Source: Brevibacterium sp. 239c (GTDB lineage Bacteria > Actinomycetota > Actinomycetes > Actinomycetales > Brevibacteriaceae). Taken from it: DNA of 64,000 nt. The translations under genes and the position numbers were made by a program. Every line of letters begins with the position of its first letter. Within the stretch, counting starts at the first letter, position 1. Where the stretch lies: assembly GCF_900169365.1 (NCBI RefSeq), contig NZ_FXZH01000005.1, forward strand, positions 1 to 64,000, in the 5' to 3' direction. The notes beneath the pieces were generated by a model, which ran no database searches, was not told the DNA's origin, and saw only the letters and a program-made list of their open reading frames with translations. This document shows positions 8,221 through 57,087 of the stretch, one piece after another.

Positions 8221-9214
8221 CGTTCGTCTCCTCCGTGCTTGTCTCGTGTCCCTCGCCCTTGTGTCCATCCCCCAGTGGTGCGGGTTCGACGACGGCGTCT
8301 TCGACCATGGTGCCGATGCCCTCGGAGGTAAAGACCTCGAGGAGGAGTGAGTGTGCCATCCGGCCGTCGATGATGTGGGCCTGTTGGACCCCATGCTCGA
8401 TGGCCTCGAGGGCCGCGGTCATCTTCGGGATCATTCCCGCGTCGAGGCTGGGCAGCAGTTCACGCAGCTTCTTCGGGCCGATGCGTGAGATCAGGCTCGA
8501 GGTATCGGGCCAGTTGGCGTAGAGGCCGGGCACATCGGTGAGCATGATCAGTTTGTCGGCCCTGAGTGCCTTCGCCACCGCCGAGGCGGCGAGATCGGCG
8601 TTGATGTTCAGGGGCTTGCCGGCCTCACCGTCGATCTCCGAGGCGATCGAGCAGATGACGGGCACCCGCCCGGCGTCGAGGAGCTCGGTGAGCACGGTGG
8701 TGTTGACCTCGGCGATCTCACCAACCCGACCGAGGTCGATGACCTCACCGTCCACCTCGGCGTGGGTCTTGTGCGCCAGCAGAAGGTCTGCGTCCTCACC
8801 GGAGAGCCCGATGGCGGCATTGCCGTTCTGGTTGATGCGGGAGACGATGTCGCGGTTGACCTGGCCGGAGAGGACCATGCGGATGACCTCGGCGGCTTCC
8901 TCACTCGTGACCCTCTGGCCGGCCTTAAACTCGCTTTCAATACCCAAGCGAGCCAGCATCTTCGTGATCTGGGGTCCGCCGCCGTGGACGACGACAGGTC
9001 GGATGCCCGCGAAGCGCAGGAACGCGATGTCATCGGCGAAGGACTGCTGGAGCTCCGGGGAGATCATCGCGTTGCCGCCGTACTTGATGACGATCGTGGC
9101 ACCGGCGAAGGTCTTGATCCACGGCAGCGCCTCGGTCAGGGCTTCGGCCTTGACCTGGGCGGCGGCAAGCCGGGCGGCCGTGGACTTCGTGGACATGTCG
9201 TGTGGGTTGCTCAT
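8213..9214 (-). CDS. argB: Acetylglutamate kinase
   Basis: It phosphorylates N-acetylglutamate, usually the arginine-inhibited control step. The 333-residue protein contains the amino-acid-kinase start motif KYGGNAM, the VVHGGGPQI loop and LTDVPGLY near the ATP site. The start at 9214 overlaps the argJ stop as ATGA; an alternative ATG at 9196 is possible. The C-terminal tail after about residue 300 is acidic and low in homology signals, so it is slightly longer than many relatives. Confidence 0.96.
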
Positions 9215-10389
9215 GTGGAGTAGGCGCTGTTCTCTTCGACGTAATCGTGGGTGAGGTCCGAGGTCCAGACCGTGGCGGTGTGATCTCCTGCGTGGAGGTC
9301 GATGACGACGTCGACGTTGCGGTCGAATGTGACCTTCTCCGGGTCCTCATAGGGACCAGAGGCCCGGCACACCTCGGTGCCGTTGATGATCACGTCGATG
9401 GCCGTGGGGTCGAAGCTCGCCGAGGTGGTACCCACCTGGGCGACGACGCGTCCCCAGTTCGGGTCCTGACCGAAGATCGCTGCCTTGAACAGGGCCGAAC
9501 GGGACACGGAGCGGGAGACCTCGACAGCCTCGGCCTCACTGGCCGCACCCTGAGTGGTGATCGCGATGTCGTGGTGAGCGCCTTCGGCATCGACGTGAAG
9601 TTGGTGCATGAGGTCGAGGCAGAGTTCGCGCAGTAAGGTGGTGAACTCGTCCACGTCGACGGCGGCATCGTGGGCGCCGGAGGACATGAGGATGACGGTG
9701 TCGTTCGTCGACATGCAGCCGTCGGTGTCGAGGCGGTCGAAGCTCTGACTTGTCGAGGCACGCAGAGCCTGGTCGAGCACGGTCTGGTCGAGACCAGCAT
9801 CTGTGGTGATGACGACGAGCATCGTGGCGAGTCCGGGTGCGAGCATGCCAGCACCCTTGGCCATCCCGCCGATCGTGAACCCGCTGGAACCGGTGCGGCT
9901 GGCGGTCTTCGCGACGGTGTCGGTGGTCATGATCGCCTCGGCAGCGGACTGTCCGGCTTCGACGCTGGTATAGGCCGCGGCGACGAGTGGGGCGAGGTTG
10001 TTCACGATCGAGTCGCGGAAGTCCTGTCCGCCGACACCGATGAGTCCGGTCGAGCAGACGAGCACGTCCTCTGCCTGGGTATCGATGCCGGCGTCGGTGA
10101 GGAGTCCGGCGGTGGTCTGCGCGGTCAGCGTGGTGGTCTCGTAGCCGAAGTCACCGGTGTAGCAGTTCGCTCCCCCGGAGTTGAGGACCACGGCGCGAGC
10201 TTGCCCGTTGGCCGAGGCTTTCTGCGACCACAGGACGGGGTTGGCTTTGCACCGGTTCGAGGTGTAGACGGCGGCGACGGCGGTGTCGGGTCCGTTGTTG
10301 ATGACCAGGGAGAGGTCTTTGGTGCCAGAGGGTTTGAGTCCTGCGGTGAGTCCGGCGGCGGTGAAGCCGAGTGGGGCGGTGACGCTCAT
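9211..10389 (-). CDS. argJ: Bifunctional ornithine acetyltransferase / N-acetylglutamate synthase
   Basis: ArgJ recycles the acetyl group between N-acetylornithine and glutamate. The 392-residue precursor has the self-cleavage motif [14 protein letters not shown], where the Thr after Ala becomes the N-terminal nucleophile of the beta chain. The start at 10389 ([13 protein letters not shown]) gives a normal ArgJ length and an ATGA overlap with argC. The longer open frame upstream is inside argC and is not used. Confidence 0.96.
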
Positions 10390-13392: not shown

Positions 13393-16300
13393 CTATCCCG
13401 CGACTAGCTGCATCAACTCGGAGTAGTCGGTGACGACATCGTAGGTAACGTCCTGGCCGTTCTTCTTGTTCAGTGACGCGAAAAACTTACGGGCACACTC
13501 AATCTTGGCGTTTTCAACTCCCTTAAGCTGAAGCGTTGATAGCGAACCCTTCGTCTCGGCGACGAAATAGACGTGCCTGACACTGTTTTCGATGAAGGCG
13601 ATTGCCCAGTCGGGATTGTAGTCACCGACGGGTGTCGGAATGAAGAACCCGCGTGGCAATTTAGCATAAACCGCGACCTCCTTGCTGGCATCCAGCTCGG
13701 TGACGAACGATTGCTCGATCTTGGAATCGGTGACGACGTAGTCGTAGATGTGCTTCGAGAGCTTGTTGCCAGCGTGGGTGAGGTCTTGCTTTGTTTGGTT
13801 CTCCGTGAAGATGGCGGATTCGAATCGGTCGTCCAACGCGTCATAGGTCAGGTGCTCGACAATCACAGTCGCCTTCTGTTCATTGATCAACCGCGCAGCC
13901 TCCGTGATGAACTGTTCAGGATTGCGACGAAACTTCGCGAACGTACCTGGCTGCACCCCGTGTAAAATCACCGCGGCGGTGCGGCGGGTGAGTTTTGTCT
14001 TCTCCGCGATCTCGCCGAGAAGGTCATACTTCACCTGCGAGCCCACGCTGACCGATTCTGTATAAGTCTGAGTACTCGACACGTCAAAGCCGGAACCGCT
14101 GTTGAGCTCATCGGACTCCAGCTGATCGCGTTGTCGACCGGTCTGAACAACGTACTGCATCGAATCGACATGCAGGTGCGTGTCGAGATTCGCAATAGCC
14201 TTTCGGATCAGCTCATCGGAGTCGAACTCAACCTGGTAGACCGCCTTATGATTGATCTTTCCCCACAAGGCTTGAAACTCCTTCTTGGCAAAGTTTGCCG
14301 CGTTGAGCGGAATTTTCTTGGGCTTGCGGCCGTCCACGAGGTCTGGCACCTCGATATAGAGCGCGTCAACGAGAGGCCAAATGAAGTCGATCACCGGACG
14401 GAGTACTTCCGAAGTGGGACCTGTGAGCTCTCCGGATTCCCTCGCCAGTTTGTATGCGTCGGAAATCGTGTCATCGTCGTTGAGATAATCGTTGCGGATT
14501 AGGTACTTGTAGAGTGCCTGTGCGACGGCTTCTTCGACAACGGACTCGCCATCAGGAGTCCGGATCGTTTTGCCGGTGAAATACTTGATGCTCGCCTTCC
14601 GAGGACGCGCTGCAAGGGACTCGGAGATCTCCTTCTGCAGACCAGTTACGAACTCAGTGTAGGACTCATCAGTGACAACCGTCAGCTCATTGATGTCGTG
14701 CACGGTGATCTCGTTGTCCATTCGTTCACCTTGTTGATCAACCGCCAATCGCAGACCACGGCCGATCTCCTGACGGCGGGACACCATGTTGTCGCTCTTC
14801 TTGAGCATCCCCATCACGAATACGTTCGGGTTGTCCCATCCTTCGCGTAGTGCCGAGTGCGAAAAGATGAAGCGGACAGGCTCTGTAAACGACAGTAGAC
14901 GTTCCTTGTCCTTAAGTATCAGGTCGTACGCACTTGTGTCCGTGGACTGCCCCTTGTCTTCGCCTCGGCCCGAGACCTTGCCGTCAATCTGTTGCCTAGT
15001 TTTTTTGTCGATCGAGAAGTAACCCTCGTGCACCTGCCAAACCTCGTCGCGACGGAGGTATGCCTGGTACTTCTCGGTGGCTTCGTCGATAGCCAACTCG
15101 CCGAGCACATCTGCCCGAATCGCGACGTATTCTTCCTCGAAGACGCGAGCGTAGTCGCCTAGCGTGTCCTCGCGGTCGTAATCCCGGTATTTGCCGACCT
15201 CGTCGATGAAGAACAGGGACAGCGTCTTGATGCCCTGACTGAACAGCTCACGTTCCTTGTCCAGATGCGCGCGGATGACTTCTCGAATCTGGATACGACG
15301 CTTCGTGTCCTCAGTCACGTCGCGGTCAGCTAGTTGACCCGCAACGACAACATCGCCGTTGCTTAGCTCGATCACGTCGCGGTTGGCATCAACTTCGGTA
15401 AGGAAGAGTCCTTTGTAGGCCTCGATCCCGTTCGACACATCGTGCAGATTCACGCCGGCGTCGAGGCGTTTCACTTGCCGCTTGATTCCTGACTGAGTTT
15501 GTACCTCGATCTCAACCCGAGCGCGTGGCTTCGCTCCGTTGGCGATCTCGATGTAGTCCAAGTAGAGGTAGGCCGTCGTGCCGGCCAAACCCTTGACAGT
15601 AATTCCGCGCACAGCGATCTTCTTCACAAGCTTCTCGTTGTAGGCGTCCAGGGCATCGAGACGGTGCACCTTAGTGTGCTCGGCCTTGTGCGTCGCCGAG
15701 TAGCGGAGCATCATCAGCCCGTTGAACCGCGACAGAGCAGCAAGCGACTTGGGGGCACCTATCTTCTGCGGCTCGTCGATAATCACAACCGGACGATTAG
15801 CCGCGATCACGTCGATCGGCTTCCGCGACTGGAAATCGTCAAGAACGTCGTAGATACGCCGGTTGTCCTTGCCCGTTGCATTGAAGGCTTGGATGTTGAT
15901 GATCATCACCTGCACCCCAGCGTCGGAGCTGAACCGCTCCAGTTCATGTAACTGGGAGGAATTGTACACGAACGATCGCGGCTTGGTACCGTACTGCTGC
16001 TGGAAGTGCTCAGCGGTCACGTCGAACGTCTTCTTCACTCCCTCGCGAATCGCGACAGACGGCACGACGACAATGTACTTCGACCAGCCGTACCGCTTGT
16101 GCAGCTCCATGATCGTCTTGATGTAGACATAGGTCTTGCCTGTACCGGTCTCCATCTCGACATCGAGATTCGGTGCGCCCGGAGCCGCCTTGCTATCAAT
16201 CAACGCGGCCGAGAGAGGGAGATTGCGGGAACGCTGGATTCTCTGGACGTTCTCCAGGAGCTGCGGACCAACGAGAGCGATTTCGGCGTTCCGTAATCCC

Positions 16301-16470
16301 GAATCGGGGTTGTCGTTCGTCTCGAACAGCGCAGGCGTGACAGTGAGTCTTGCTTGACCCGGGTCAATCCGGTAGGAAACCCCATCTTGCTTAGGCTGTC
16401 CGTCGAAAACTACGACCACCGAGTCTACGGCGTCGGTCTGGTATTGCTGAACCTTAAACTGAAGTTTCAT
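13393..16470 (-). CDS. Type III-like restriction subunit (Res), helicase-nuclease
   Basis: This 1025-residue protein starts MKLQFKVQQYQTDAV like type III Res proteins. Superfamily 2 motor motifs are Walker A METGTGKT (106-113), Walker B DEPQ (232-235, the type III form of DEAD) and a motif VI-like stretch after HSALREGWDNPN. Near the C-terminus, NPDWAI followed by YFVAETKG fits a PD-(D/E)XK nuclease core. It would translocate or switch on DNA and cut when bound with Mod at unmethylated sites. The ATG at 16470 is chosen over the GTG just before it. It starts five bases after the mod stop and is the last gene of the operon. Confidence 0.9.
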   Translation of the reverse strand: MKLQFKVQQYQTDAVDSVVVVFDGQPKQDGVSYRIDPGQARLTVTPALFETNDNPDSGLRNAEIALVGPQLLENVQRIQRSRNLPLSAALIDSKAAPGAPNLDVEMETGTGKTYVYIKTIMELHKRYGWSKYIVVVPSVAIREGVKKTFDVTAEHFQQQYGTKPRSFVYNSSQLHELERFSSDAGVQVMIINIQAFNATGKDNRRIYDVLDDFQSRKPIDVIAANRPVVIIDEPQKIGAPKSLAALSRFNGLMMLRYSATHKAEHTKVHRLDALDAYNEKLVKKIAVRGITVKGLAGTTAYLYLDYIEIANGAKPRARVEIEVQTQSGIKRQVKRLDAGVNLHDVSNGIEAYKGLFLTEVDANRDVIELSNGDVVVAGQLADRDVTEDTKRRIQIREVIRAHLDKERELFSQGIKTLSLFFIDEVGKYRDYDREDTLGDYARVFEEEYVAIRADVLGELAIDEATEKYQAYLRRDEVWQVHEGYFSIDKKTRQQIDGKVSGRGEDKGQSTDTSAYDLILKDKERLLSFTEPVRFIFSHSALREGWDNPNVFVMGMLKKSDNMVSRRQEIGRGLRLAVDQQGERMDNEITVHDINELTVVTDESYTEFVTGLQKEISESLAARPRKASIKYFTGKTIRTPDGESVVEEAVAQALYKYLIRNDYLNDDDTISDAYKLARESGELTGPTSEVLRPVIDFIWPLVDALYIEVPDLVDGRKPKKIPLNAANFAKKEFQALWGKINHKAVYQVEFDSDELIRKAIANLDTHLHVDSMQYVVQTGRQRDQLESDELNSGSGFDVSSTQTYTESVSVGSQVKYDLLGEIAEKTKLTRRTAAVILHGVQPGTFAKFRRNPEQFITEAARLINEQKATVIVEHLTYDALDDRFESAIFTENQTKQDLTHAGNKLSKHIYDYVVTDSKIEQSFVTELDASKEVAVYAKLPRGFFIPTPVGDYNPDWAIAFIENSVRHVYFVAETKGSLSTLQLKGVENAKIECARKFFASLNKKNGQDVTYDVVTDYSELMQLVAG

Positions 16471-16475
16471 CACGG

Positions 16476-18359
16476 TCAGATCGCCTTCACGTCAGTGGAC
16501 GGCGAAATCTCGCGGAAGACCTGCTCCGCATTAATTCGTTCAGCATCCGAAGCGAATCCGGAGTCAAGGAACACCGCCCGAAGCGGCTCACGCTTCGCGA
16601 GCGCGCGCACCAACTCTGGGCTCACATCGTCATCAAAACACGCGACGAGTGCTTCGTCCTCGACCACGAAGACCTCATGCCCTTCGACCTTCTCAACTGA
16701 CACGAACATCGTCACCTCGAGCCCCCAGTCGAGGAGAATCTGGAAGAGCAGGTCTTCGCCGGTGCGATCGCTCTTAATGCTGTCTTCCAAAACCGACAAC
16801 GTCTCTTGATCTGTTCCATCGGGCGTGCGGAGAACGTCGAGCTTGTTGGTGGTGTCAACTCTCAGGCTCCGAAATCCTACGTCGATATGCTCGGCATCCA
16901 AGGTGGGATCGTCGACGATTTCCCTGCCAGCGCGACGAAGGCGCTCAACGGAGAAGTCCGCGAGTGTTGCAAACTGCTCTGATGCTGGGGCAACCGGTTC
17001 GTTCAATTGCACCAGGATGAAGCGACGGTTCCCTCCATCCTCGGCATTTTGTTGCATTACAGCGTCGCCGGTGGTGGCAGAGCCCGCAAAGAAGTCGAGA
17101 ACAATATCCTCGGACTCAACTGAGGTTGCCAACTGAAGCATGCGCCGCACGAGCCGAGTAGGTTTGGGGGTCGAAAAGACCAGATCCGAGGAGTCGGAGT
17201 GCATGCGGGCGATCAATTCTTTTTTTGCTTCTTGGTTGTGGCCGACCTCAGAGTACGGCCAGAAGGTCTCAGCCACGCGACCTTGCTTCACTTCTGACAG
17301 GAATCGCTTAATTGCCGGACGATTCGAGCCATTTTTCCCGAACCAGACACGTCCGTCGGCGACCATCTCCTCATATCGGTCCTTCGTATAGAGCCAGGCT
17401 CGACCGGGCGGAGGACTGAAACTATGCCCGGCGGGGGTAACTAGTTTATAGAACTGGCTCGCTGTTGCGTGGCCTGAGGCCGCAGTTGCATCGGTCGACT
17501 TCCAGCGGCCCCGAGGATCATTGTCCGGATTCTTATAGGCTTTGTCCTGCTCCTCCGTCCTCGGAAGCAAGTTCGAAGCCCAGTCGGCACCATTTCTTGC
17601 ATATACGTGAACATAATCATGCACCGATGCGAATTGGGTCGCACTATTCATAGGCGAATAGACTTTCTCCCAGATGACGGTGGCCAAGAAGTTCGAAGCC
17701 CCAAAGATTTCGTCAAGCATCTGCTTCAGAGCCGCCGATTCGTTGTCGTCAATCGAGACAAAAACTACACCGTCGTCCGTGAGAAGGTTGCGCGCGAGCT
17801 TCAAACGCGGGTACATCATGGTGAGCCAATCCGTGTGGAAGCGTCCGTTTGACTCAATGTTCGCCACCAACCTATTACCGAGTTCGTCCGTCTGACCAGA
17901 TGCTGCGAGATAGCTGTCGTTATCCTGCGCATAGTCATCCGGGTACACGAACCGGTCGCCACCCGTGTTGTACGGCGGATCGATGTAGATCAGCTTGATC
18001 TTGCCGAGATAGGACTCCTGGATTAGCTTCAGAGCGTCGAGGTTGTCACCCTCGATGAAGAGGTTCTTCGTCGTGTCAAAGTTGACCGAAGCTTCTCTCA
18101 CGGGACGGAGCGTCTTGGCGATGGGTGCGTTCGCAGCGAAGGCTGCGGCTCGCTTGCCTGGCCAGTCGAGCCGGTAACGCTCCTGCGGCCCTTCGACGAC
18201 GTGGTCTGAGAGTTCTTGCCGCAGGAGGTCGAAGTCGATGGCCATCTTGCTGTTACCGTCGTCGTCGATGCTCTCAGTAACGACGGTTGGAAACAGCTCG
18301 GCGAGCTTGTCAATATTGGCATCGGTCAAATCGGGCGACGTCATTCGGAGCTTGTTCAC
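16476..18359 (-). CDS. Type III-like adenine DNA methyltransferase (Mod)
   Basis: This 627-residue beta-class amino-methyltransferase has DPPY (127-130, in IYIDPPYNTGGD) before the AdoMet motif FAGSAT (424-429), the order found in type III Mod proteins. The stretch between them (about 230-400) would carry the target-recognition domain. The motif fits N6-adenine methylation; the target sequence cannot be read from the protein. The GTG start follows GAGGT and lies three bases after the DUF4391 stop. It forms one transcription unit with the helicase, DUF4391 and res genes. Confidence 0.92.
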   Translation of the reverse strand: MNKLRMTSPDLTDANIDKLAELFPTVVTESIDDDGNSKMAIDFDLLRQELSDHVVEGPQERYRLDWPGKRAAAFAANAPIAKTLRPVREASVNFDTTKNLFIEGDNLDALKLIQESYLGKIKLIYIDPPYNTGGDRFVYPDDYAQDNDSYLAASGQTDELGNRLVANIESNGRFHTDWLTMMYPRLKLARNLLTDDGVVFVSIDDNESAALKQMLDEIFGASNFLATVIWEKVYSPMNSATQFASVHDYVHVYARNGADWASNLLPRTEEQDKAYKNPDNDPRGRWKSTDATAASGHATASQFYKLVTPAGHSFSPPPGRAWLYTKDRYEEMVADGRVWFGKNGSNRPAIKRFLSEVKQGRVAETFWPYSEVGHNQEAKKELIARMHSDSSDLVFSTPKPTRLVRRMLQLATSVESEDIVLDFFAGSATTGDAVMQQNAEDGGNRRFILVQLNEPVAPASEQFATLADFSVERLRRAGREIVDDPTLDAEHIDVGFRSLRVDTTNKLDVLRTPDGTDQETLSVLEDSIKSDRTGEDLLFQILLDWGLEVTMFVSVEKVEGHEVFVVEDEALVACFDDDVSPELVRALAKREPLRAVFLDSGFASDAERINAEQVFREISPSTDVKAI

Positions 18360-18362
18360 GGA

Positions 18363-19028
18363 TTACCTCTGCTGTTTCAGTTGTGTTTGCTTCGTCTTGA
18401 GTATTCGGCGCAGATCAATCTTGCGATTGAGCTGTGGCTCGGTGCGGAGTCTCCGTTCCAGAACGGCGATCTCACGCTCGAGCATTCGCACGGCGCTCAG
18501 TCTGTCGGCTACCTCCGACATCTCCTCGTCGGGCCGCAACGTCACTGGGATCAGTGGCTCCAAGAGTGCCCCGTAGAGGGCAGGTAGCGAGACGGCTACT
18601 GGGAGTGGGTGCCGCTCTGCACCTGCGGCTTGCCAGCCGGTTGTGTAGTAGGAGCTGAGCTTCGGAGTCCCTGCCCCGAGCCGCTTGTGTGCCGCGACCA
18701 ACCGCACCTGTGGCTCAGCATCGAGTGTGCGTGCGATCTCGAAGATGATCGGGTACTGGATAGCCTTGTCGATCGCAGTCAACACTAGGTCCGAAAGATC
18801 GTCCTTCTTGACGTCGAGCCGGAAGACCTGCACCTCGGGAACAGCGTCATTTCCGGACAGGTTGATGGTGGATTCCGCGAGCTTGTACGCCCACGTGATT
18901 CGCTGCACATCTGAGACGAAACGGTCGCGCACGGCCTTACTCACATTGGCTTTCTCGTAGAATTTCTCTTTGGGGACGCGTCGTTCGAACTTGGCCGCGA
19001 CAGGCCATTTGTATAGAAGGTCGGCCAT
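18363..19028 (-). CDS. DUF4391-domain protein of the restriction operon
   Basis: This 221-residue protein starts MADLLYKWPVAAKFERRVPK, typical of DUF4391 proteins as I remember them. The last 55 residues (from about EEMSEVADRL) are highly charged and helical and look like a coiled coil, suggesting it bridges partners. No catalytic motif is seen. The ATG at 19028 is preferred to an in-frame start at 19067 because homology begins there and it lies just after the helicase stop. The family tends to occur between a helicase gene and a type III-like mod gene, as here. Its biochemical role is unknown to me. Confidence 0.75.
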   Translation of the reverse strand: MADLLYKWPVAAKFERRVPKEKFYEKANVSKAVRDRFVSDVQRITWAYKLAESTINLSGNDAVPEVQVFRLDVKKDDLSDLVLTAIDKAIQYPIIFEIARTLDAEPQVRLVAAHKRLGAGTPKLSSYYTTGWQAAGAERHPLPVAVSLPALYGALLEPLIPVTLRPDEEMSEVADRLSAVRMLEREIAVLERRLRTEPQLNRKIDLRRILKTKQTQLKQQR

Positions 19029-19035
19029 ACGTTGC

Positions 19036-22000
19036 TCACTCAACCTGATTCGAATCGACGATCGCAATGAACGCTGTCAGCTCGAAGTTGTCCAGGCCAG
19101 CGATGGTCCGGGTGAGCGCGGTGGTACGCCCACCGGTGAAAAGGCTGTCGATGTCGCGCTCTTCTGCAACATTGATAATTGAATGGATCGCGTCGGTTAG
19201 AAGCTCCGAGTACGTATCCATCCTCGCGCCTTCAGCCGTGGCGGAGTTGAAGGTCCTCACGACCGCCGGCACGGGTTCCTCACGCGGCCGGCACCCGGCG
19301 CGCAGCAGGTCGAGGAGATGCTTGGCCTCGGTGTGGTCTGCGACCACCTCGCCCTGATCATCGAGATAGACGAGGTAGTGCGGATGGAGGCGGTTACCGC
19401 GGTTCATCTGCTCGTCGGCGTTGACGTTGCGGAGGGCGAAGATCGCCCCGGGCACGAGTCCCGTGTCCGGGTCCGCGGGGATAACGCCGTGTAGCCCCTT
19501 GGGCACGGCCGCGAGGTCACCATATTCCTTGATGTAGCCGAGGAGGTCCATCCGGAAATCATTGAGTCCGAGGTCGGTGATAGAGACACCGGTACGGACA
19601 TCTTCCAGCTCGATGACTTCATCTTGTAGTTTACGGAGCTGTTCCTTACGGAAGGCGGCGTCGGAGTCTTCAAGTGTGAGAACGTTGTCATCGGCCGTCC
19701 CGGCGAGGTCGGCAATTACCATCCTGGACTCAACACGCACTTTGAGGTTGATGTACTCATCCAACGAAATGTCGGGCCAGAAGTTGACGAGTTGGATGCA
19801 ACTGTTCTGGGAGCCGATCCTGTCAATACGCCCGAACCGCTGGATGATCCGTACAGGGTTCCAGTGGATATCGTAATTGATCACGTAGTCGCAGTCCTGC
19901 AAGTTCTGGCCTTCACTGATGACGTCAGTCCCTATCAGAACGTCCAGTTCCTGGGCCTCATTCGGCATCGTCAGGTGACGCTGCTTCGACTGTGGCGAGA
20001 ACAACGCCATGACCTGCTGGAAGTCGTAGCCGGTGCCAAGTGTGGTCTTCGCGCCGTGGCTGCCGCCCGTGATGACAGCTGCTTCCAATCCCGCTAGAGA
20101 GAGGCTTGAAGCGAGTTCACGGTAGAGGTAGTTGGCGGTATCTGCGAAAGCAGAGAACACCAACACCTTGCGGTTTCCAGGATTGATCGGATGCTGCGCT
20201 TTGTGCTGGATCAACTCTTTGAGCTTGCGGAGCTTCAGGTCGTGTTCGGGCGTAATCTTGTGCATTTCATCGAGAAGTGCCCGCAGCGTCTCACGGTCGC
20301 TCCACAGGTCCCGCTGCCATGACTCGATGTCAAGGTCGTGGAGGTCGATCTTGATCTTCTCGCCGACTGCGATCGCTTCGATGTTCGCGTCGTCCTCTTC
20401 GTCAATATCGAAGTCGAGCCCGGCGAGGTCCGGCGCGATGTCTGCCAAGAATCCGGTGTGGCTGCTAATACGGCCAAGGGAGTGGGCCACGGATTCTTCA
20501 ATCTTCGTCAGCGTCAGCCGAAAAGCCTCGACCGAACTTTCCAGCCGTTTGAGAAGGTTCACAGTCATAAGCTTCTTCAGCCCTTGCTCACGACCAGCCT
20601 GTCCCAAGTTGGCGCGGGCGGTGCCGACAGTGACGTTGTACCGCTCTTCGTACTTTGCACGTCGGCTCGCGAACACATACTCCAGCGGTGCATATACCGC
20701 GAGAGTGAGGGATTGGAGCCGCTCAAAGATGTCGTTGAAGCTGGGTGCTTTCGGGAGGTCGGTGAGTGACTGGTGGATCGACAGTGGATCGAGCCGCTCC
20801 GGGAACGCTCCGATCTCGGTCGTGTCATAGAACGCCTGTATGTGCTTACGGGATCGTGCGATGGTGACCGAGTCCAACAGCTCGAAGAAATCGAAGTCGA
20901 GCATCTGTAGGATGCGATCGGTTGTGCGCTGCGCCGAGTCGAGTTTGGACCACTCGTTAAACACCCGTTGAGCATCGGAGAAAACCTTCTCAACCGTCGT
21001 GGAGAGGTTCAGGTGCTGTGCGAGGTTTTCCGACTCGCCCTCGTACGCGAGCTGGAGTTGGTTCTTCAAATCGTTGAAGCGGTTGTTCACCGGGGTAGCC
21101 GAGAGCATCAATACCTTCGTGTTAACGCCCTCGCGGATGACTTGCCGCATCAGCCGCTGGTAGCGCGATTCTTTCTCCTGCGCATAGTCGGCGTTACGGA
21201 AATTGTGGGACTCATCAATCACAACGAGGTCGTAATTGCCCCAGTTGATTCGATCCAGGCGCAATCCAAGGGATTCGCCTTTAGTTCGGGACAAATCCGT
21301 GTGGGCAAGGACGTCGTAGCTGAACCGATCTGCGGCGAAGATGTTTGTCGTGAGATTGGCGTTGTAGTTCGTCCAGTTCTCGGCGAGCTTTTTCGGGCAC
21401 AGTACGAGCACGGACTTATTGCGCAGTTCGTAGTATTTGATCACAGCCAAGGCCGTGAATGTCTTACCGAGGCCGACTGAGTCGGCAAGGATGCAACCGT
21501 TGTAGGTCTCCAGCTTGTTGATGATCCCGGTCGCAGCGTCGTGCTGGAAGTTGTACAGGCTCTGCCACACTTTGGTGTCTTGGTATCCAGTGCGGTCGTT
21601 CGGCAGCACGTCCTCGCTAATATCGTCGAGGAACTCTGAGAACAGATTATAAAGTATAAGGAAGTAGATACGAGCGGGTGGGTTCTCCGCGTACACGCTG
21701 GATATGTGATCATGGACGCTCTGAGTGACATCCTCGAGTTGTGCAGAGTTCGCCCAAATCTGGTCGAAAAGTTGCATGTACTGGGCCGTCATGGGCGCAT
21801 CGTCCACTCGGTGCACTATGTTCGAGACCGCGTTTCCACGCTCATAACCGAGGTCGGCTGTAGTAAACCCCTGTAGTGGCAAGTACGCTACCCTGTCATC
21901 AACTACGGCGAACTGCTGCATCGGACTACCGGTCGCATTCGACCGGAATGTGACCTTGCCACGCACCCACTCCGCACACTCACGTGCTATCGCGCCTTGG

Positions 22001-22308
22001 GTCAACTTGTTTCGCAATCGGATCTCAAACTCCGACCCCGCTAGAGTCGACTCCGCACCCCAGTACGGTATGAAGAACTCGCGACGCTCCTTTCGGAGCT
22101 TGTCCGTCGCCTTCTCAGTCATGAACGATGGTGAAGTGAAAATGAACTCGAGTTCAGAGACCTGCCCCAGCTCTTTCCGCAGCGCCTCGAACGCGAAGAT
22201 CGAAAATGTCGAGGCGGCGATACGTACCTTTGAGCCAGTTGTGATCTCCGCTTTGAGATCATCACCGAGGAGGTCGGTGACGTTGTTGATGATCCGCAAG
22301 CTAGTCAC
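19036..22308 (-). CDS. PLD-like / SNF2-type helicase of the restriction operon
   Basis: This large 1090-residue ATPase has an N-terminal part (about 20-160) resembling a phospholipase-D-like domain (GSKVRIAASTFSIFAFEAL). The expected HKD signature is degenerate: around 130-150 it reads QQFAVVDDRVAYLPLQGFTT, without the histidine. The SF2 motor follows: Walker A DSVGLGKT (276-283), DESH (365-368), SATPVNNRFNDL, and a C-terminal helicase half with GTDVISEGQNLQ and QRFGRIDRIGS. A GTG start overlaps the HTH gene stop (GTGA). It probably acts on DNA with the Mod/Res pair encoded downstream. Confidence 0.88.
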   Translation of the reverse strand: MTSLRIINNVTDLLGDDLKAEITTGSKVRIAASTFSIFAFEALRKELGQVSELEFIFTSPSFMTEKATDKLRKERREFFIPYWGAESTLAGSEFEIRLRNKLTQGAIARECAEWVRGKVTFRSNATGSPMQQFAVVDDRVAYLPLQGFTTADLGYERGNAVSNIVHRVDDAPMTAQYMQLFDQIWANSAQLEDVTQSVHDHISSVYAENPPARIYFLILYNLFSEFLDDISEDVLPNDRTGYQDTKVWQSLYNFQHDAATGIINKLETYNGCILADSVGLGKTFTALAVIKYYELRNKSVLVLCPKKLAENWTNYNANLTTNIFAADRFSYDVLAHTDLSRTKGESLGLRLDRINWGNYDLVVIDESHNFRNADYAQEKESRYQRLMRQVIREGVNTKVLMLSATPVNNRFNDLKNQLQLAYEGESENLAQHLNLSTTVEKVFSDAQRVFNEWSKLDSAQRTTDRILQMLDFDFFELLDSVTIARSRKHIQAFYDTTEIGAFPERLDPLSIHQSLTDLPKAPSFNDIFERLQSLTLAVYAPLEYVFASRRAKYEERYNVTVGTARANLGQAGREQGLKKLMTVNLLKRLESSVEAFRLTLTKIEESVAHSLGRISSHTGFLADIAPDLAGLDFDIDEEDDANIEAIAVGEKIKIDLHDLDIESWQRDLWSDRETLRALLDEMHKITPEHDLKLRKLKELIQHKAQHPINPGNRKVLVFSAFADTANYLYRELASSLSLAGLEAAVITGGSHGAKTTLGTGYDFQQVMALFSPQSKQRHLTMPNEAQELDVLIGTDVISEGQNLQDCDYVINYDIHWNPVRIIQRFGRIDRIGSQNSCIQLVNFWPDISLDEYINLKVRVESRMVIADLAGTADDNVLTLEDSDAAFRKEQLRKLQDEVIELEDVRTGVSITDLGLNDFRMDLLGYIKEYGDLAAVPKGLHGVIPADPDTGLVPGAIFALRNVNADEQMNRGNRLHPHYLVYLDDQGEVVADHTEAKHLLDLLRAGCRPREEPVPAVVRTFNSATAEGARMDTYSELLTDAIHSIINVAEERDIDSLFTGGRTTALTRTIAGLDNFELTAFIAIVDSNQVE

Positions 22309-25416: not shown

Positions 25417-26187
25417 TCACGCCGGACTATCGGCTTCGGGTTGTTGTCGAGTTGTCTTGCGCATGTTCGGGCCATCGAGTTGGACGATCTCGCTGACAGA
25501 TACCAGTCGGCTGAGGATCGACTCGGCGATGACGGCGTCGTGGAGTGATTTGTACCAGTCTTCCGGGTCGAACTGGGACGTGACGATCGTGGCTCCGCGG
25601 CCTTCTCTGCTCGCAAGGATGTTGAGGATCTTGGCGGTCGTGTCCATCGTGATCGGAGTGGTGAGGAAGTCGTCGAGGACGAGGACATCGCAGTGACGCA
25701 GCCTGTCGAGGAACTTCAATCCTCCGGGGTCAGACGGCTGGTAGACCGCCAACCGATTCCCCAGATCGTCCAGCCGCCAGTACGCGACGGTGTAGTCCTT
25801 TCGGCAGGCAGCGTTGACCAGGGCCTGGGCCAGATAGGACTTGCCGACGCTGGTTTTGCCGAGGATGATCACGTTCGTCGCATTGTCGATCCAGGCACAT
25901 GAAGCGAGCCGATCGACGACGTCGCGAGTCAGCGTCCGATCAGGCAGGTAGCGGACGTCTTCGACACAGGCTGCGGGGTTCGGTGTGTGAGAGGCCTTGA
26001 GGAGTTTGTGGACGCGGCGTTCTGCCCGGGCGGCAAGCTCGATGTCGAGAGCATGGTGGATTTTGGCAGAGAACGTCCAGTCGTCGTAGGCGGAATCGTT
26101 GGCGATATCGATCACGGCCTGCCCGAACGCGGTCATCCGCAACTGGGTGAAAGTCGCCATGTCATCAGTGGTCAGGTGATCGGTCAT
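25417..26187 (-). CDS. istB: IstB-like transposition helper ATPase
   Basis: This 256-residue AAA+ ATPase assists the IstA transposase by forming target complexes on DNA. Walker A is GKTSVGKS (in VIILGKTSVGKSYLAQAL) and Walker B is DVLVLDDF. An STSQFDPEDW-like sensor region (VTSQFDPEDWYKSL) and LVSVSEIVQLDG follow, as in other IstB proteins. The frame looks intact and starts inside the istA stop (ATGA, 26184-26187). With istA broken it may be unused or act in trans. Confidence 0.93.
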   Translation of the reverse strand: MTDHLTTDDMATFTQLRMTAFGQAVIDIANDSAYDDWTFSAKIHHALDIELAARAERRVHKLLKASHTPNPAACVEDVRYLPDRTLTRDVVDRLASCAWIDNATNVIILGKTSVGKSYLAQALVNAACRKDYTVAYWRLDDLGNRLAVYQPSDPGGLKFLDRLRHCDVLVLDDFLTTPITMDTTAKILNILASREGRGATIVTSQFDPEDWYKSLHDAVIAESILSRLVSVSEIVQLDGPNMRKTTRQQPEADSPA

Positions 26188-27806
26188 TGGTCGGATCCTT
26201 TCTCATCGTTCGTTAGCGCCGTGAGGCGGAATTGATCAACACCAGTCAGGTGAGCCCGGCTGGTATCCCTGGACACAGCCGCGGCTGGGGCCGGTGATGG
26301 TGGCGGTGTGACTGCAGGTCGTTGCTTGGCTTGGGCGCGAATAGCAGTCAGCTGGTGCTTGACCGCGGTGTAGCTGATCGGCCGGTGCTCATCGGCACAC
26401 AGTGTTTGGCAGGCTTGCTCCAGCAGGGGCCGGTTATCGCCCTTGCCCAGAGACAGGATGTTCATGCAGGCTCTGAATCCTTGGGCTTCGATCTTCTTGG
26501 TATCCAGCAGCCGGGTGAGCGCTTCAACCGTGTTCGGCCCTGCTTTCGCGGCTTGGCGGAGGAAGTAGCCGCGAGTCCACAGCCCAGTGGTTTGGCCTTG
26601 AGAGGCTGGCGCATGATCGGCATCGGTGACATATGAATGCTTCTTCCTACCCACTCGGTGGCTAGCGACGATGTCGCCACCGGCGAGGACGTCGAGCCTG
26701 GTGCCAACGATGCGCACATCCACGGTGGTCCCGACGAAGGTGGCGGGCACCGAGTACTTGATGGTCTCGATCTGGATATGCCAGTCCCGGGAGACCTTCG
26801 CCTTCTTCCAGCTCACGTCCTGCCAGGGCTGGTCGGGCAGGCTGATGAGGTCACCAGCTTCATCGTCGGAAAACCAGTCACGCCGGGACCTGGATTGGCT
26901 GCGGAAGGGAGTGCGATCGTTGATCCACTCCACCCGGCTGGCGACTGCGTCGTTGAGGTCATCGATATCAGCAAAGAGCTGGTCGGCGAGGTAGTGGATG
27001 ACCCAGTTCGTGACGATCTTGACGCCGGATTCGACGTTCGCTTTCTCTTTCGGCTTATAGGCACGGGTCGGAACGGCTGCCGTGTTGTAGTGCTCGAGGA
27101 ACCCGGCATACGAGGCGTTGACGTCGCGGGTCTTGTCATACTTGCTGATCTGATTCGACGCTGTTGAGGCGTTGTCGGGGATGATGACCTGAGCCACGCC
27201 GCCGAAGTATTCGAAGGCACGCCTGTGAGCATCGCACCAGGCAGAGAGTTTCTCATCCAGGCACCCGTAGGCAAAGATCATTCCCGAATACGGCAGTGTG
27301 GCGACGAAGATCGAAACCTTCGTGAGCGCGCGGGTGATCGGGTCGGTGATCCACATCGGGGTGCCGGCCCAATCGACTTGCATCGTGTGACCCGGGGTGT
27401 GCGTGATCGGGCTGGTGAGGTCGTGGGTGCGGACGTGTTCGGCGATGATCTGGCAGAACCGTTCATACCTGTAGTGCCGCGTCGACGGAGTGGGTGCCGG
27501 AGTGTTGAGGTAGCGGGCTCACAACACTTTCAACGGTGGCTTCTTTCGTCCGATCCGGGCGGTGATGACGGCATCGACATCGATCGGGACGAAGTCGCCA
27601 TCGACGCTTTTGCGGCCGTCGGTGAAGAACCGGTCGAGGTCGGCGACGGTGAGGGCATCGACTTGGTCCGTTGTCGTCAGCGACTGGTCCTTGACGACGG
27701 TGCGGGCCTTCGCGATCGCGCGGTGAGAACAGCTAGCCATCGCTTCGATCTGTCGGTAGGAGTAACCCTGAACGATCAGGGAGAGAATGTGCCGGTAGTC
27801 GGCCAT
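26184..27806 (-). pseudogene. istA: IstA transposase with an internal stop codon
   Basis: The frame starts MADYRHILSLIVQGYSYRQI (ATG 27806, AAAGGA upstream), the helix-turn-helix end of IS21 transposases. It runs 95 codons to an in-frame TGA at 27519-27521 in the sequence PPLKVL*ARYLNTPAPTP, where relatives would have a sense codon such as tryptophan. The same frame then continues to 26184 with the DDE catalytic domain: MQVDWAGT, VIIPDNAST and KEKANVESG. A shortened protein from the ATG at 27383 would lack the DNA-binding domain. Confidence 0.92.
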
Positions 27807-36491: not shown

Positions 36492-36535
36492 TCCTCCAGG
36501 TATGTTCCTGCGTTCGCAGGAACATACCTGGAGGA
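36492..36535. repeat. Near-perfect 44-bp palindrome
   Basis: Two 21-base arms (36492-36512 and 36515-36535) are perfect complements around a two-base TT centre. The motif begins TCCTCCAGGTATGTTCC. It starts 12 bases after the iclR stop and ends before the convergent GmrSD-like gene. It could be a bidirectional terminator without a U-tract or a dispersed REP-like palindrome. Confidence 0.85.
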
Positions 36536-36619: not shown

Positions 36620-38719
36620 TCAGTCAGTGGCGGCATTTTGAAACTCCGCACGAACGTCTCTCAATCGACGACCGTCATTGACGGCCCAGAAATACCAGCC
36701 GTTCGTGGCTTTCTGACGCAGTGCATAACCAGCGGCAGACGGACTGTAGTACTTTTTCCCATCGAATTCGATGGCACCATCCGCCGTCACCTTCGCCTTG
36801 GAGCTTGTGAAGTCACGGTGTGTTGCCGAGAGTTCATCACCACCAGCCAGCAGCCCGGCCTCGATCAGATGTTTGAGCTCCACCCAGTCTCCCGCCTTCG
36901 TCTGCGGATCGATTACTCGCCCCTCGTGGCCTTCCGGCACTGGCCACACCTTGAGCAGCTCATCGATCAACTCAGCGGTTCTCTGATCGATCAGCTTTTC
37001 GTCCCATTCAAGGTTTTCAGTCATGCCTACGACCCGGCCCGTCAGCGTGATCGTATTATGCTGCAGGAGTGCGGCACGCTTCGAACGCCAAGGACCGTTC
37101 GAAATCTTGGAATTCAATGAATTGGTCAACAGTGTTAAGTTCCCCAATCGATGAACGCGCTCCTGACGCTCCTCCTCTGCTTCCAGGGTGCTTGCCGGCC
37201 AGGTGTCCTTCCAAGCACGCGGAAGAATATGCTCGATCGGATAGTTATTGCGCTCAATCTGCGGCTGGCCCGTTTCGGCACGGTATCGGTCTTCGATAGC
37301 TTCAAGAAACATGCGCAGGCGTCCGCGGGGAAAGCGCCTATACGCTGATTCGATGGTCAGCGAATTGCGGACCTCTTCATCTCCTGGCCAGTAGGCCGTG
37401 GTTACGTTGAGCCGTGACAAATATCCAATGACGCGATCAGCTAAGTCTTCGGCGTCCGCTTCAGCGTTTGCGGCTATCACATCAGCGACGATGCGGCCTA
37501 GATTACTGCCTGACAGACGAAGAAGCTGCCTGCGGTAGATCCAGCTCTCGGCCGCTCTGATGATTCGGTCGATGTCATGTTGCGACACATTGCGTCCGGG
37601 CGCATACAACCAGATCACAAGTGGCTTGAGAACTTCAATGCCGCTGGCCGCCATTCGATAGAAGGCCATTTGAGGCGAGTTGAGGCTACCGCCGGGTCGG
37701 GCTGACGATTCTGAGAGTTCTTGATATTGAGCAGCCTGAACTTGCAGTTCCGGCAGAATGTCGCTCATCTGTCGCCTCGAATCATGTTCGATCCATGATT
37801 TGAATCGCGAGAAGGTAGCTTGCGGGCTGATTTCTTCACCAGTGATGGCGACTAGCCACTGGTTGAAGAACAGGGAACTGCGACTGACGAAATTGCGACC
37901 GACGCTGACCTCTTTCATCCAGAACTTTGACTCGAATGGCCACTCTTCGCGATATGCGCGATCAGTGTCCGCGCCCTCAAGCTCCAGGCGTTGGAACACG
38001 AAATTTCGAATCAAGTCGGCAGCCGTCAGCGGAGTTCCACGCGCATTCAGGGTCTCGAAGATCTCCTGAGAGTTCTCTGCAGCATCCAGTTCGATCGAAA
38101 CGAATTGCAACCCATCTAAGAGAACATTCGTCAGTTCTTCCGCCTTATCTGCGAAGTCCGGAGATTCCGGAGAGCCGAGCCACTGTTCCATCACTGCTGA
38201 GAAATAGCGGTGAGCAGCGACTATCTGCGAGTCTCGCTGCCTGAGCTGGTCGTAGTTGACGGGCGGCTCGGCGAGCATCACTTCGGTGAACGCCGCGCCG
38301 TCCCGATTCAGGTGCCGTAGTTTGAGGCGGCTTTCGCCATCATCGACGTATTTCTCTGAGTTGTGTGTCAGATCATCCAGCTGGCTCGCCAGTTTCACAT
38401 AATCTGCTTCTTCCAGAAGGGCACACGCTGCGTCAGCGACAATCTGCAGAGTAGTCAGTCTCTGTTGGCCATCGATGACGTTCCAGGCGATCAGTCGTCT
38501 ACTCTGTACTTCCTGCGCCTGGAGCACGACAGCGCCGAAGAAGTGAGTTGCTTCGCGGTACGGCTCCGCAATCCGCAGCTCAGCAACACGCCGGATATCA
38601 CTCCACAGCGGATCCCACTGTTCAGCTTCTTTCCACACGTAGGGACGCTGAAATAGGGGAATGACGAAATGTTGAGGCAGGTTGAACAACTGCATCGGTG
38701 TTCGTTTGAAGGTCTCCAT
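36620..38719 (-). CDS. GmrSD-like type IV restriction protein (DUF262-DUF1524) with C-terminal RAMA domain
   Basis: The protein has 699 residues. The N-terminal DUF262 part shows IPLFQRPYVW (20-29) and the nucleotide-binding-type VIDGQQRLTTLQ (81-92). The DUF1524 part has the HNH-type core YPIEHILPRAW (493-503) and HRLGNLTLL...NSKISNGPW (523-544). These two domains are fused in GmrSD-type enzymes that cut modified phage DNA. A final 80 residues (about 612-690, LIEAGLLAGGDEL, DGAIEFDGKKYYSPSAAGYA, NGWYFW) resemble a RAMA domain, found with DNA-modification enzymes. The ATG at 38719 is chosen because homology starts there. It stands alone. Confidence 0.88.
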   Translation of the reverse strand: METFKRTPMQLFNLPQHFVIPLFQRPYVWKEAEQWDPLWSDIRRVAELRIAEPYREATHFFGAVVLQAQEVQSRRLIAWNVIDGQQRLTTLQIVADAACALLEEADYVKLASQLDDLTHNSEKYVDDGESRLKLRHLNRDGAAFTEVMLAEPPVNYDQLRQRDSQIVAAHRYFSAVMEQWLGSPESPDFADKAEELTNVLLDGLQFVSIELDAAENSQEIFETLNARGTPLTAADLIRNFVFQRLELEGADTDRAYREEWPFESKFWMKEVSVGRNFVSRSSLFFNQWLVAITGEEISPQATFSRFKSWIEHDSRRQMSDILPELQVQAAQYQELSESSARPGGSLNSPQMAFYRMAASGIEVLKPLVIWLYAPGRNVSQHDIDRIIRAAESWIYRRQLLRLSGSNLGRIVADVIAANAEADAEDLADRVIGYLSRLNVTTAYWPGDEEVRNSLTIESAYRRFPRGRLRMFLEAIEDRYRAETGQPQIERNNYPIEHILPRAWKDTWPASTLEAEEERQERVHRLGNLTLLTNSLNSKISNGPWRSKRAALLQHNTITLTGRVVGMTENLEWDEKLIDQRTAELIDELLKVWPVPEGHEGRVIDPQTKAGDWVELKHLIEAGLLAGGDELSATHRDFTSSKAKVTADGAIEFDGKKYYSPSAAGYALRQKATNGWYFWAVNDGRRLRDVRAEFQNAATD

Positions 38720-53779: not shown

Positions 53780-56011
53780 ATGGCATCTGATCAGGAATCT
53801 CTTTCCAATATCGCGGCTTCTCGCCCTGACGACGAAATGGCAATGGCTTCAGAGGCCGCCGAGGTTATCTCGCATCTCCTCGGAGACCGACGCTCTACGC
53901 TTGATCCCTCAATCGAGATTTGGACATCCGAAGCGGCAGAGAATCTGCGGGCACGAATCGAAGATGACCCGATCTTCGGCGGTTCGATGGGGCAATGGAA
54001 CAAGCTCGATATCCAACTCACAGACGCCCCGCGAGAAGTAGTTCTCCTTGCAGCAGAACTCGTATTTCTCCGAGAAATTCCCATCTTGGAGGCCCGACCG
54101 GAAACACGGAAGTCCCATGTTGAAATGGTGCTCTCCCACCTCGATGAAGAACATCCATTTCCTCCCAACCTTTTGCAGTCCTTCGACCGTCCTTCCGGCA
54201 CCGCTGGCTTCCGGGCGGGCCGGGGTTACAACGGAAATATGTGGCTGCACCTAATCTGGGCGTCGACGTTCGTCCGTTACTGGAATTCGCTGGAAGACGA
54301 CGCGCAGAATCAAGCGCGCCAAGATCCCTGGGCGCTCCAGCGCGTCATGTTGGAGTGTGGCGACGACCAAGCAGATATTCGCAACGCATTTCAGTTCCTG
54401 TTCCGGCCTGACGTCTTTGAACCGATTGCGTCCACTGCGACGAAGATTCGGGTACGCGATGGTTTAGCTGAATGGATCGGTATGCCGGCAGGAAACGATC
54501 CGGCCTCCGTCGATCGAGACTTGTTGACAGCACGGGGTGCCCTGACTGCCGAGTTCGACGGCGAGTTCGGCTTTTGGTACGACGGTGTCCAGGAACTCTG
54601 GGATGACTCAGTCAACGACACAGAATCCGATGAGACTTCCGATCCCGACGAAGACACCCCAAGGTCCCGCCATTATTGGCTCTTCTCCCCTGGCAGCCAA
54701 GCTTCCGAATGGGATGCTTTCTCTTCCGAAGGCATCATGGCCCTTGGCTGGGATATCGGCGATCTGGCGCAGTTCCCAGACCGCGCTTCCATTCGAAAAG
54801 CTCTCGACATCCATGGAACAGGTGCGTCGATGACAAATGACGTCTTAGCTCTATGGCAATTTCAGAACGAAATCGAAATCGGCGACGTTATTTACGCCAA
54901 AAAGGGCCGGAAACAATTTGTCGGACGAGGTGAGGTCACCTCAGTCGCTAAATTTGAGCCAGATCGCGCTGATTACCGTCACGTCCGCACGGTAGCTTGG
55001 ACTCATAAGGGCGAGTGGGAGAACCCAGAGAACGGGCCGCTGAAGACGCTCACTGATATCACTCAACTGTCAGGCTATGTTGAGGAACTCGAAGATTTGT
55101 TCGGCGAAGACAGCGAACCCAGACTAATACCATCAAGAGGAGATCTCCCGACATATAGTCGCGATGATTTCCTTGAAGAAGTGTTCGTCTCAGATGATGA
55201 TTACGATCGACTTGCATCTCTCCTCAAGCGCAAGAAGAACATAATTCTGTCCGGCCCTCCCGGGGTTGGAAAGACCTTTGCAGCGAAACGACTCGCCTAC
55301 TCGATCATGGGCTTCAAGGACACGGCCAGAACCCAAATGGTCCAGTTCCATCAGAGCTATTCCTACGAAGACTTCATGATGGGATACAGGCCGAACGAAG
55401 AGGGCGGGTTCCGTTTGGAGAAGGGGCCGTTCTACCGTTTCTGCGAAGAGGCGCGGGCCGACGATTCCAAAAGGCCATACTTCTTCATCATCGATGAGAT
55501 CAATCGCGGCAACATCTCGAAGATTTTCGGCGAGTTGCTCATGCTCATCGAAGCTGACAAGAGGGGCCAAGAGCTCAGACTGCTCTACAAAGACGAACTG
55601 TTCTCCATACCAGCTAACCTCCACATCATCGGCATGATGAACACCGCTGATAGGAGTATTGCCGTTCTCGACTACGCATTGCGGCGACGGTTCGGTTTCT
55701 TCTCCATGCATCCGGCGTTTGACACTGCAGGTTTCGCACAGTGGCAGGCTGAGGTTGATGACTCTAAATTCGATGTCCTGGTCGATGTCGTAGCTCGGCT
55801 CAACAAAGACATCGCCAACGATCTTGCCCTCGGTCAGGGTTTTGCAATCGGGCACAGCTACTTGACCCGCCCGGCCAGCGGCAACCACGACGAGTCGTGG
55901 ATGCGTTCGATCATCGACGACGAGCTCATTCCACTACTCAACGAATATTGGTTCGACGAGCCCGAAAAGGTTGAGAATTGGACTAAGAACCTGAGGGCAG
56001 TCCTCGGATGA
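53780..56011 (+). CDS. mcrB: McrB-like type IV restriction motor with EVE-type domain
   Basis: The protein has 743 residues. Residues 1-290 are not recognised. An EVE/PUA-like segment covers about 298-410 (HYWLFSPGSQASEW, IMALGWDIGDLAQF, IEIGDVIYAKKG, GRGEVTSVA) and probably reads modified bases. The AAA+ motor shows Walker A GPPGVGKT (492-499), Walker B FFIIDEINRG (568-577) and MNTADRS (620-626), the hallmark of McrB GTPases. It overlaps mcrC by four bases. McrBC cuts DNA containing modified cytosine in classical cases; the modification recognised here is unknown. It is a single defence locus in an otherwise metabolic region. Confidence 0.93.
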   Translation: MASDQESLSNIAASRPDDEMAMASEAAEVISHLLGDRRSTLDPSIEIWTSEAAENLRARIEDDPIFGGSMGQWNKLDIQLTDAPREVVLLAAELVFLREIPILEARPETRKSHVEMVLSHLDEEHPFPPNLLQSFDRPSGTAGFRAGRGYNGNMWLHLIWASTFVRYWNSLEDDAQNQARQDPWALQRVMLECGDDQADIRNAFQFLFRPDVFEPIASTATKIRVRDGLAEWIGMPAGNDPASVDRDLLTARGALTAEFDGEFGFWYDGVQELWDDSVNDTESDETSDPDEDTPRSRHYWLFSPGSQASEWDAFSSEGIMALGWDIGDLAQFPDRASIRKALDIHGTGASMTNDVLALWQFQNEIEIGDVIYAKKGRKQFVGRGEVTSVAKFEPDRADYRHVRTVAWTHKGEWENPENGPLKTLTDITQLSGYVEELEDLFGEDSEPRLIPSRGDLPTYSRDDFLEEVFVSDDDYDRLASLLKRKKNIILSGPPGVGKTFAAKRLAYSIMGFKDTARTQMVQFHQSYSYEDFMMGYRPNEEGGFRLEKGPFYRFCEEARADDSKRPYFFIIDEINRGNISKIFGELLMLIEADKRGQELRLLYKDELFSIPANLHIIGMMNTADRSIAVLDYALRRRFGFFSMHPAFDTAGFAQWQAEVDDSKFDVLVDVVARLNKDIANDLALGQGFAIGHSYLTRPASGNHDESWMRSIIDDELIPLLNEYWFDEPEKVENWTKNLRAVLG

Positions 56012-57087
56012 CTGCAGCCACGATCCGAATTCGAAATGTGTACGTAATGATGGCGTATGCGTTCCGGTCACTTCAGAGTCGTGACAGTATCTCGGTGAAG
56101 AGCGAAGCGTTCAACCATCTCCACGATCTCCTGGCAGAGCTGTTGTACCGCGGGTTGAGTTCCCAGATCAAGCGTGGACTGCACAGTGACTATCTACCGA
56201 GAGTCGATACCCTCGCAACGGTTCGCGGACGGATAGATGTCTCTCAGACCGCCAGCACTCGGTCAATGTTGCGTGGTCGGCTGGTCTGCCAATTCGACGA
56301 GTACCTCCCCGACACTCCTCACAATCGTGTCCTCAAATCGGTCGTCGTCTTGCTCATTCGGCGAGGAGAGGTGGCAGCCCTCCGTCGGAAGGCTCTCAAG
56401 AACCTTTTGCCCCACCTTGAGTCGGTAAGAGAAATCAAAGCGTCAACAATTCGTTGGGGCGATCTGAGTATTCACCGCGCCAACGCAAACTACCGGATGT
56501 TGCTCGGCATCTGTGAACTCATTGTCAAAGGACTTCTCCCGACGCAGGAATCCGGTAGTTCAAAATTGAGGTCCTGGATGACCGACGAAGCGATGAACAG
56601 GCTCTACGAAAGATTCATCCTTCAGTACTTCAAAATCCACCATCCGGAACTATCCCCTCATGCTCGCCAGATCCCCTGGGCGCTTAACAGCCTCGAATCC
56701 GATGGAGCAGGCCAGTTGCCCATCATGCAGACTGACATCACGCTGAACAATGGTCACGCAGAGCTCATCATCGATGCGAAATATTACGGTCGGTCGCTCC
56801 AGTCTGGTCGAGGAGACAAGCAGACCGTCCATTCGCACAATCTCTACCAGATTGCCACGTACACATGGAACGCGGACGTGCATCGCGACGGTTCGGTGAG
56901 CGGCGTGCTCTTGTATGCCCGGACTATCCACGAAGAACAGCCCGATGTCGATGTCGTTATCCAGGGCAATCGCATCGGCGTCCAAACCCTCGATCTCAAC
57001 CTCCCGTGGGAGGCTCTACGCTCCAGACTGGAGGGTCTGCTCGGTTGGCTGGAGCCACGACAAGTACACGTCGAGTTTCTTGTCTGA
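56008..57087 (+). CDS. mcrC: McrC-like nuclease partner
   Basis: This 359-residue partner of McrB starts in the mcrB stop (ATGA). The nuclease core is D243 in MQTDITL and D256-A-K258 in LIIDAKYYG, a PD-(D/E)XK site. The N-terminal part (RIRNVYVMMAYAF) matches McrC proteins of the shorter type. The McrB ring would drive McrC-mediated cleavage. Confidence 0.92.
   Translation: MTAATIRIRNVYVMMAYAFRSLQSRDSISVKSEAFNHLHDLLAELLYRGLSSQIKRGLHSDYLPRVDTLATVRGRIDVSQTASTRSMLRGRLVCQFDEYLPDTPHNRVLKSVVVLLIRRGEVAALRRKALKNLLPHLESVREIKASTIRWGDLSIHRANANYRMLLGICELIVKGLLPTQESGSSKLRSWMTDEAMNRLYERFILQYFKIHHPELSPHARQIPWALNSLESDGAGQLPIMQTDITLNNGHAELIIDAKYYGRSLQSGRGDKQTVHSHNLYQIATYTWNADVHRDGSVSGVLLYARTIHEEQPDVDVVIQGNRIGVQTLDLNLPWEALRSRLEGLLGWLEPRQVHVEFLV

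Follow-up and report, generated by a model that had tools for sequence, protein, structure and literature searches.

Does a GmrSD-type restriction nuclease that ends in a RAMA domain use this domain to read a DNA modification, or simply to hold on to DNA? The question is raised by a gene in the window, by which we mean the whole 64,000-nucleotide stretch of Brevibacterium sp. 239c DNA that was analysed (contig NZ_FXZH01000005.1, positions 1 to 64,000). The role of RAMA domains, mark reader or DNA holder, is debated, and results for the eukaryotic protein MPND conflict. A GmrSD-RAMA protein offers a handy test case, as the enzyme is compact, the RAMA domain comes last and is probably tethered, and the relatives are tail-less or differently tailed.

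The open reading frame at 36620-38719 on the minus strand runs without a stop for 699 aa from an ATG at 38719, and its start, METFKRTP, is common to the window protein and its relatives in the alignment. A previous sequence-only reading had described DUF262 and DUF1524 halves followed by about 80 residues resembling RAMA. Pfam searches bore out both halves on one chain (PF03235, 123.5 bits for a cut-off of 33.2; PF07510, 95.6 bits for a cut-off of 23), and the RAMA search suggested for residues 600-699 was positive (PF18755, 63.2 bits versus a curated cut-off of 35.2), with a domain of about 88 residues that agrees with the proposed size. The features of the gene and its protein are as follows:

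36620..38719, minus strand: gene whose 699-aa product is a GmrSD-type nuclease on a single chain, with RAMA at the C-terminus (conserved start, full-length relatives)
37994..38692, minus strand: GmrSD_N (DUF262, ParB-like NTPase), residues 10-242 (Pfam E 1.5e-35)
38639..38659, minus strand: P21-L-F-Q-R-P-Y27 patch, with F23 at the phosphorothioate-sensing position of DndI Y25 and SspE Y30 (alignment to DndI 9jfl)
38459..38473, minus strand: DGQQR NTP-hydrolysis motif, residues 83-87 (unchanged across 27 relatives)
36962..37390, minus strand: GmrSD_C (DUF1524, HNH nuclease), residues 444-586 (Pfam E 3e-27)
37112..37234, minus strand: HNH catalytic set E496-H497, N527 and N536 (relatives and DndI alignment)
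36902..36943, minus strand: linker, residues 593-606 (model confidence below 50 at residues 604-611)
36638..36901, minus strand: RAMA domain, residues 607-694 (Pfam E 2.4e-17; fold of the CcrM and MPND RAMA domains)
36686..36703, minus strand: NGWYFW, residues 673-678, in which N673 and W675 pair with CcrM N330 and W332 (alignment)

The RAMA-type tail is genuine. When a profile of 14 tails was compared with the PDB, CcrM was retrieved with an E-value of 8e-7 and MPND weakly (E 0.09), and the C-terminal part of the NCBIfam CcrM model aligned to residues 605-686 of the window protein (E 2.6e-6). The structural model of the tail (pLDDT 84) matched CcrM (6pbd, E 2e-5) and MPND (7ydw and 7ydt) with a Foldseek probability of 1.00; TM-scores to CcrM and MPND were 0.68-0.74 by query length, and all other matches were far lower. 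The Pfam, profile and fold tests thus rule out a chance or compositional artefact. PADLOC models for Orf5, HEC-06 and Type IV restriction also matched the window protein, all of them across the GmrSD body. The gene holds the sole copies of RAMA and GmrSD_N in the host genome, as no second instance of either domain was found there.

As for the body, the nearest solved relative is DndI (PDB 9jfl), by profile (E 2e-50) as well as by fold. The full-length model (pLDDT 88) matched DndI best (E 8e-17), then SspE (1e-12) and BrxU (2e-6), with CcrM and MPND recovered separately for the tail. DndI and SspE, the closest solved structures to the body, have no RAMA tail. Residues D83 to R87, E496, H497, N527 and N536 were invariant in 27 sequences. 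The function of the DGQQR motif is known from DndI and SspE (PMC11662687, PMC13251355), and N536 pairs in the alignment to 9jfl with DndI N541; substitution of that residue greatly reduced nuclease activity and abolished defence (PMC11662687). The GmrSD-family Type IV enzymes (E. coli CT596 GmrSD, Eco94GmrSD and BrxU) likewise carry DUF262 and DUF1524 on one chain, and have the DGQQR and EH..N..N motifs and the helical linker between the halves in common with the window protein. BrxU, for which a structure has been solved, lacks a RAMA tail, and although its fold was recovered, its sequence similarity to the window protein is weak (E 0.002). TM-scores of the full model to BrxU were also low (0.29-0.38), so the arrangement of the domains may differ. 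Domain content and homology to enzymes of known activity support an NTP-gated HNH nuclease. By analogy with DndI, SspE and BrxU, the DUF262 part would bind and hydrolyse NTP through DGQQR, and the resulting movement would gate the DUF1524 HNH nickase or nuclease.

Given this kinship, the enzyme might act as DndI and SspE do, sensing a mark on host DNA that prevents or licenses cleavage, so that unmarked phage DNA is cut. The standing of DndI as the nearest solved relative and the DGQQR and HNH residues that it has in common with the window protein speak for this reading. However, Y25 of DndI is the phosphorothioate sensor (PMC11662687), and F23 replaces this tyrosine in all members of the window protein's own actinobacterial clade. 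Moreover, the host genome gave no match to DndC in a search that did give matches in other genomes, and neither the window gene nor its four closest relatives have a modification gene beside them. We therefore regard DndI/SspE-like action as improbable, and a role as a Dnd partner enzyme is unlikely given the lack of DndC and the presence of F23. The split between F and Y at this position was rejected as a marker of RAMA, since F occurs in the RAMA-less L022 and L023, and Y in L025/L026, which carry RAMA. As there is no neighbouring modification gene, no DndC and no sensing tyrosine, Type IV logic is favoured over Dnd/Ssp logic.

In the tail alignment (102 residues, with position 1 at residue 598), the invariant or nearly invariant positions G30, L33, S64, N76, G77 and W78 correspond to CcrM G287, L290, H317, N330, G331 and W332. 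Position S/T62 pairs with CcrM S315, and R93 probably corresponds to CcrM R350, judging by pattern and not by a printed alignment. In CcrM, S315, H317, N330, W332 and R350 have structural or phosphate-contact roles, and changes that remove them severely impair the enzyme (PMC6787082). Thus, the tail resembles the C-terminal RAMA-type domain of CcrM in fold and in DNA-phosphate positions, although the carrier of the latter is a methyltransferase and not a nuclease. The full-length model has one longer gap in confidence, at residues 604-611, and since this gap lies right ahead of RAMA, the domain is probably tethered.

These data would fit a restriction nuclease that depends on NTP and uses RAMA as a tethered DNA-binding arm, most likely operating by Type IV logic, a reading that we favour with about an even chance of being right. 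By analogy with CcrM, RAMA on its flexible linker would grip the phosphate backbone next to the cleavage site; it would raise affinity and help to set which DNA is engaged, and the main chemical discrimination would probably remain in the DUF262/HNH body.

The live alternative, which is the view of the sequence-only reading and which we rank behind the DNA-binding arm, is that the tail truly recognises a modified base and thereby determines which DNA is attacked; 6mA in a particular sequence context or a hypermodified phage base would be examples. RAMA is present in many restriction-type proteins and has been proposed as a 6mA reader (PMC11037411; PMC12839542). The RAMA-type domain of CcrM, however, contacts only the backbone, binding DNA phosphates non-specifically, and with hemimethylated DNA no structural difference was seen (PMC6787082). 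For MPND, an earlier pull-down had suggested otherwise, but DNA binding was unchanged by 6mA in a structural study (PMC9963953). In the solved RAMA structures, those of CcrM and MPND, the contacts are with the DNA backbone. In the GmrSD tails, the alignment shows no extra invariant pocket beyond the CcrM-like structural and phosphate-contact positions. In addition, the host genome contains three above-cut-off matches to N6/N4 methyltransferases, one weak N6_Mtase match and two C5 methyltransferases; since the host would make such marks itself, a reader with broad specificity for methylated bases would turn the enzyme against its own host. Overall, we consider a base-reading tail possible but tentative, and the narrower claim that the tail reads one specific modification and so constitutes a built-in, swappable specificity module appears doubtful.

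For pairs of relatives, dN/dS was similar in tail and body: 0.07 and 0.06 for L003/L006, where synonymous sites were not saturated, 0.08 and 0.06 for L008/L009, and 0.18 and 0.14 for L019/L020. Purifying selection thus holds the tail about as strictly as the nuclease body, which rules out a decaying tail, and because the two ratios are equal, the tail is needed. A passive or regulatory appendage, acting as a dimer contact or in autoinhibition and having no DNA-binding role, would agree with the tethered domain in the AlphaFold model; nevertheless, the strong purifying selection and the retention of the CcrM phosphate-contact positions make it very improbable. Between Actinomycetota genera, on the other hand, the tail outpaces the body in divergence (window protein versus L017: 43% identity in the tail and 59% in the body, pN 0.376 and 0.277), a point in favour of a reader.

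The search for the architecture covered 60 genomes from the family, 57 of them in the genus. Within the genus, five of the 57 genomes, including that of the window, have a homologue with at least 73% identity, and a sixth has one with 39%; all of them are tailed. Full-length relatives show 73-76% identity in the genus, and 57, 57, 54, 55 and 35% among 396 Actinomycetota genomes. In this latter sample, at least nine of the 21 above-cut-off RAMA matches sit in GmrSD proteins, namely those of the window's genome, G327, G347, G397, G277, G247, G136, G212 and G082, with GmrSD_C followed by RAMA in G082. GmrSD proteins on alphaproteobacterial plasmids also have a RAMA-like tail, with a weak DUF4357 match and the NGW..W motif kept. 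A one-off fusion is ruled out by the full-length relatives in the genus and in other Actinomycetota and by the RAMA-like tails on plasmids. Carriage of the gene by phages was unsupported, as 50,697 phage records gave only weak matches that lacked RAMA.

A tree of GmrSD bodies requires at least three changes of RAMA gain or loss, as expected for an exchangeable module. L025/L026, in which RAMA is followed by DUF4268, form a distant clade adjoining the RAMA-less L029; within the clade of the window protein, RAMA is followed in L017, L019 and L020 by an MGMT-like DNA_binding_1 domain, which the window lineage lacks. Altogether, RAMA, DUF4357, DUF4268, MGMT-like and DUF5655 domains are swapped at the C-terminus of GmrSD proteins. 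Such interchange supports the reader, but repeated exchange fits an affinity role as well as a specificity role. Should the choice of substrate lie with the tail, one would expect a family of interchangeable readers of modified phage DNA, in which the RAMA, RAMA plus MGMT-like and RAMA plus DUF4268 tails would form a natural reader series for different phage DNA chemistries.

In the literature searched, we found no paper that names or assays GmrSD-RAMA or any of these GmrSD tails. The 2016 BioEssays paper that founded RAMA may already list DUF262-DUF1524-RAMA. Extra C-terminal domains on GmrSD proteins are known, as are fusions of RAMA to other types of nuclease. GmrSD proteins with C-terminal DUF4357, DUF4268 or DNA_binding_1 are on record (Machnicka 2015, PMC4619093), and those with extra C-terminal domains including DUF4357 were mentioned again later (PMC8565348). 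The 2015 proteins have the same layout, and relatives of the window protein likewise have DUF4268 or DNA_binding_1, placed after RAMA; the name RAMA, a separate Pfam model, is however absent from that paper. The DUF4357 model overlaps the RAMA stretch, below cut-off in the window protein (E 0.008) and more clearly in L010, L017, L018 and L019. Because the two models share one stretch, the GmrSD-DUF4357 architecture of 2015 overlaps GmrSD-RAMA. In RAMA-Mrr-NTPase and GIY-YIG-RAMA fusions (PMC11037411), RAMA is also combined with a nuclease, but the nuclease folds differ. Among other RAMA proteins, a 276-aa protein of L057 (1147-1974) has RAMA and DUF4357 in tandem, which suggests that both Pfam models cover a single superfamily, and in L052 (82-1794) RAMA comes last in a 2191-aa open frame that also contains an MTES_1575 nuclease domain and DUF3320.

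The genomic setting of RAMA-GmrSD genes is that of a mobile defence gene. The window gene looks acquired, its GC content being 55.2% between flanks of 62.0 and 63.1%, and it is flanked by genes for an IclR-type regulator and an amidohydrolase. Here and in the closest relatives, the neighbouring genes have metabolic or regulatory functions. Within the genus, it is found as a single gene in three or more chromosomal contexts with no neighbouring methyltransferase in common: the homologues of L003 and L033 sit at the opposite end of the same sugar-acid operon, and those of L034 and L035 at other locations. We picture a restriction nuclease of the GmrSD/DndI/SspE superfamily that was acquired horizontally and works without a partner. 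Because no partner methyltransferase lies beside the gene, Type IV logic is most likely, by which the enzyme would attack DNA bearing a phage-type modification that the host lacks.

Other RAMA-GmrSD genes have different neighbours. In a distant relative, L041 (2731-10442), the GmrSD-RAMA frame begins about 35 bp past hsdM, in the same direction as the Type I genes hsdR, hsdS and hsdM. It looks like a further member of their operon, and a connection with adenine methylation is conceivable. CBASS, Shedu and hsdR genes lie next to the gene in L042 and an Eco57I-type methylase gene in L037, and a RAMA-GmrSD fragment in L004 lies beside an IS3-like transposase and near a Type I methylase, both judged by eye.

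The window itself holds three restriction modules within 44 kb, as GmrSD-RAMA is accompanied by a Type III system and by an McrB and McrC pair (53780-57087). The Type III restriction-modification operon (res, mod; 13396-22308) also encodes a DUF4391 protein and an SNF2-type helicase and may be a four-gene extended Type III system; the helicase resembles DISARM DrmD, PLD-helicase and DpdE, with scores far below their NCBIfam cut-offs. An IS21-type transposase pair (istA/istB, 25417-27383) lies between this operon and metabolic genes. Between the IclR gene and GmrSD-RAMA, two 21-base arms flanking TT form a perfect palindrome (36492-36535), present once in the genome, which is perhaps a two-way terminator, although it lacks a T run. 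In L003, an Mrr-type nuclease gene adjoins the IclR gene at the position that GmrSD-RAMA occupies in the window, so that the two ends of the sugar-acid operon bear different putative restriction nucleases (Mrr-type and GmrSD-RAMA, 1490-2809 and 7881-10112), which suggests that the operon ends are an insertion hotspot for restriction genes. Finally, in one 917-aa frame of L003 (10178-12928) a ResIII/DEAD helicase is fused to sigma-70 regions 1.2, 2 and 4, an unusual combination whose start is similar in L033.
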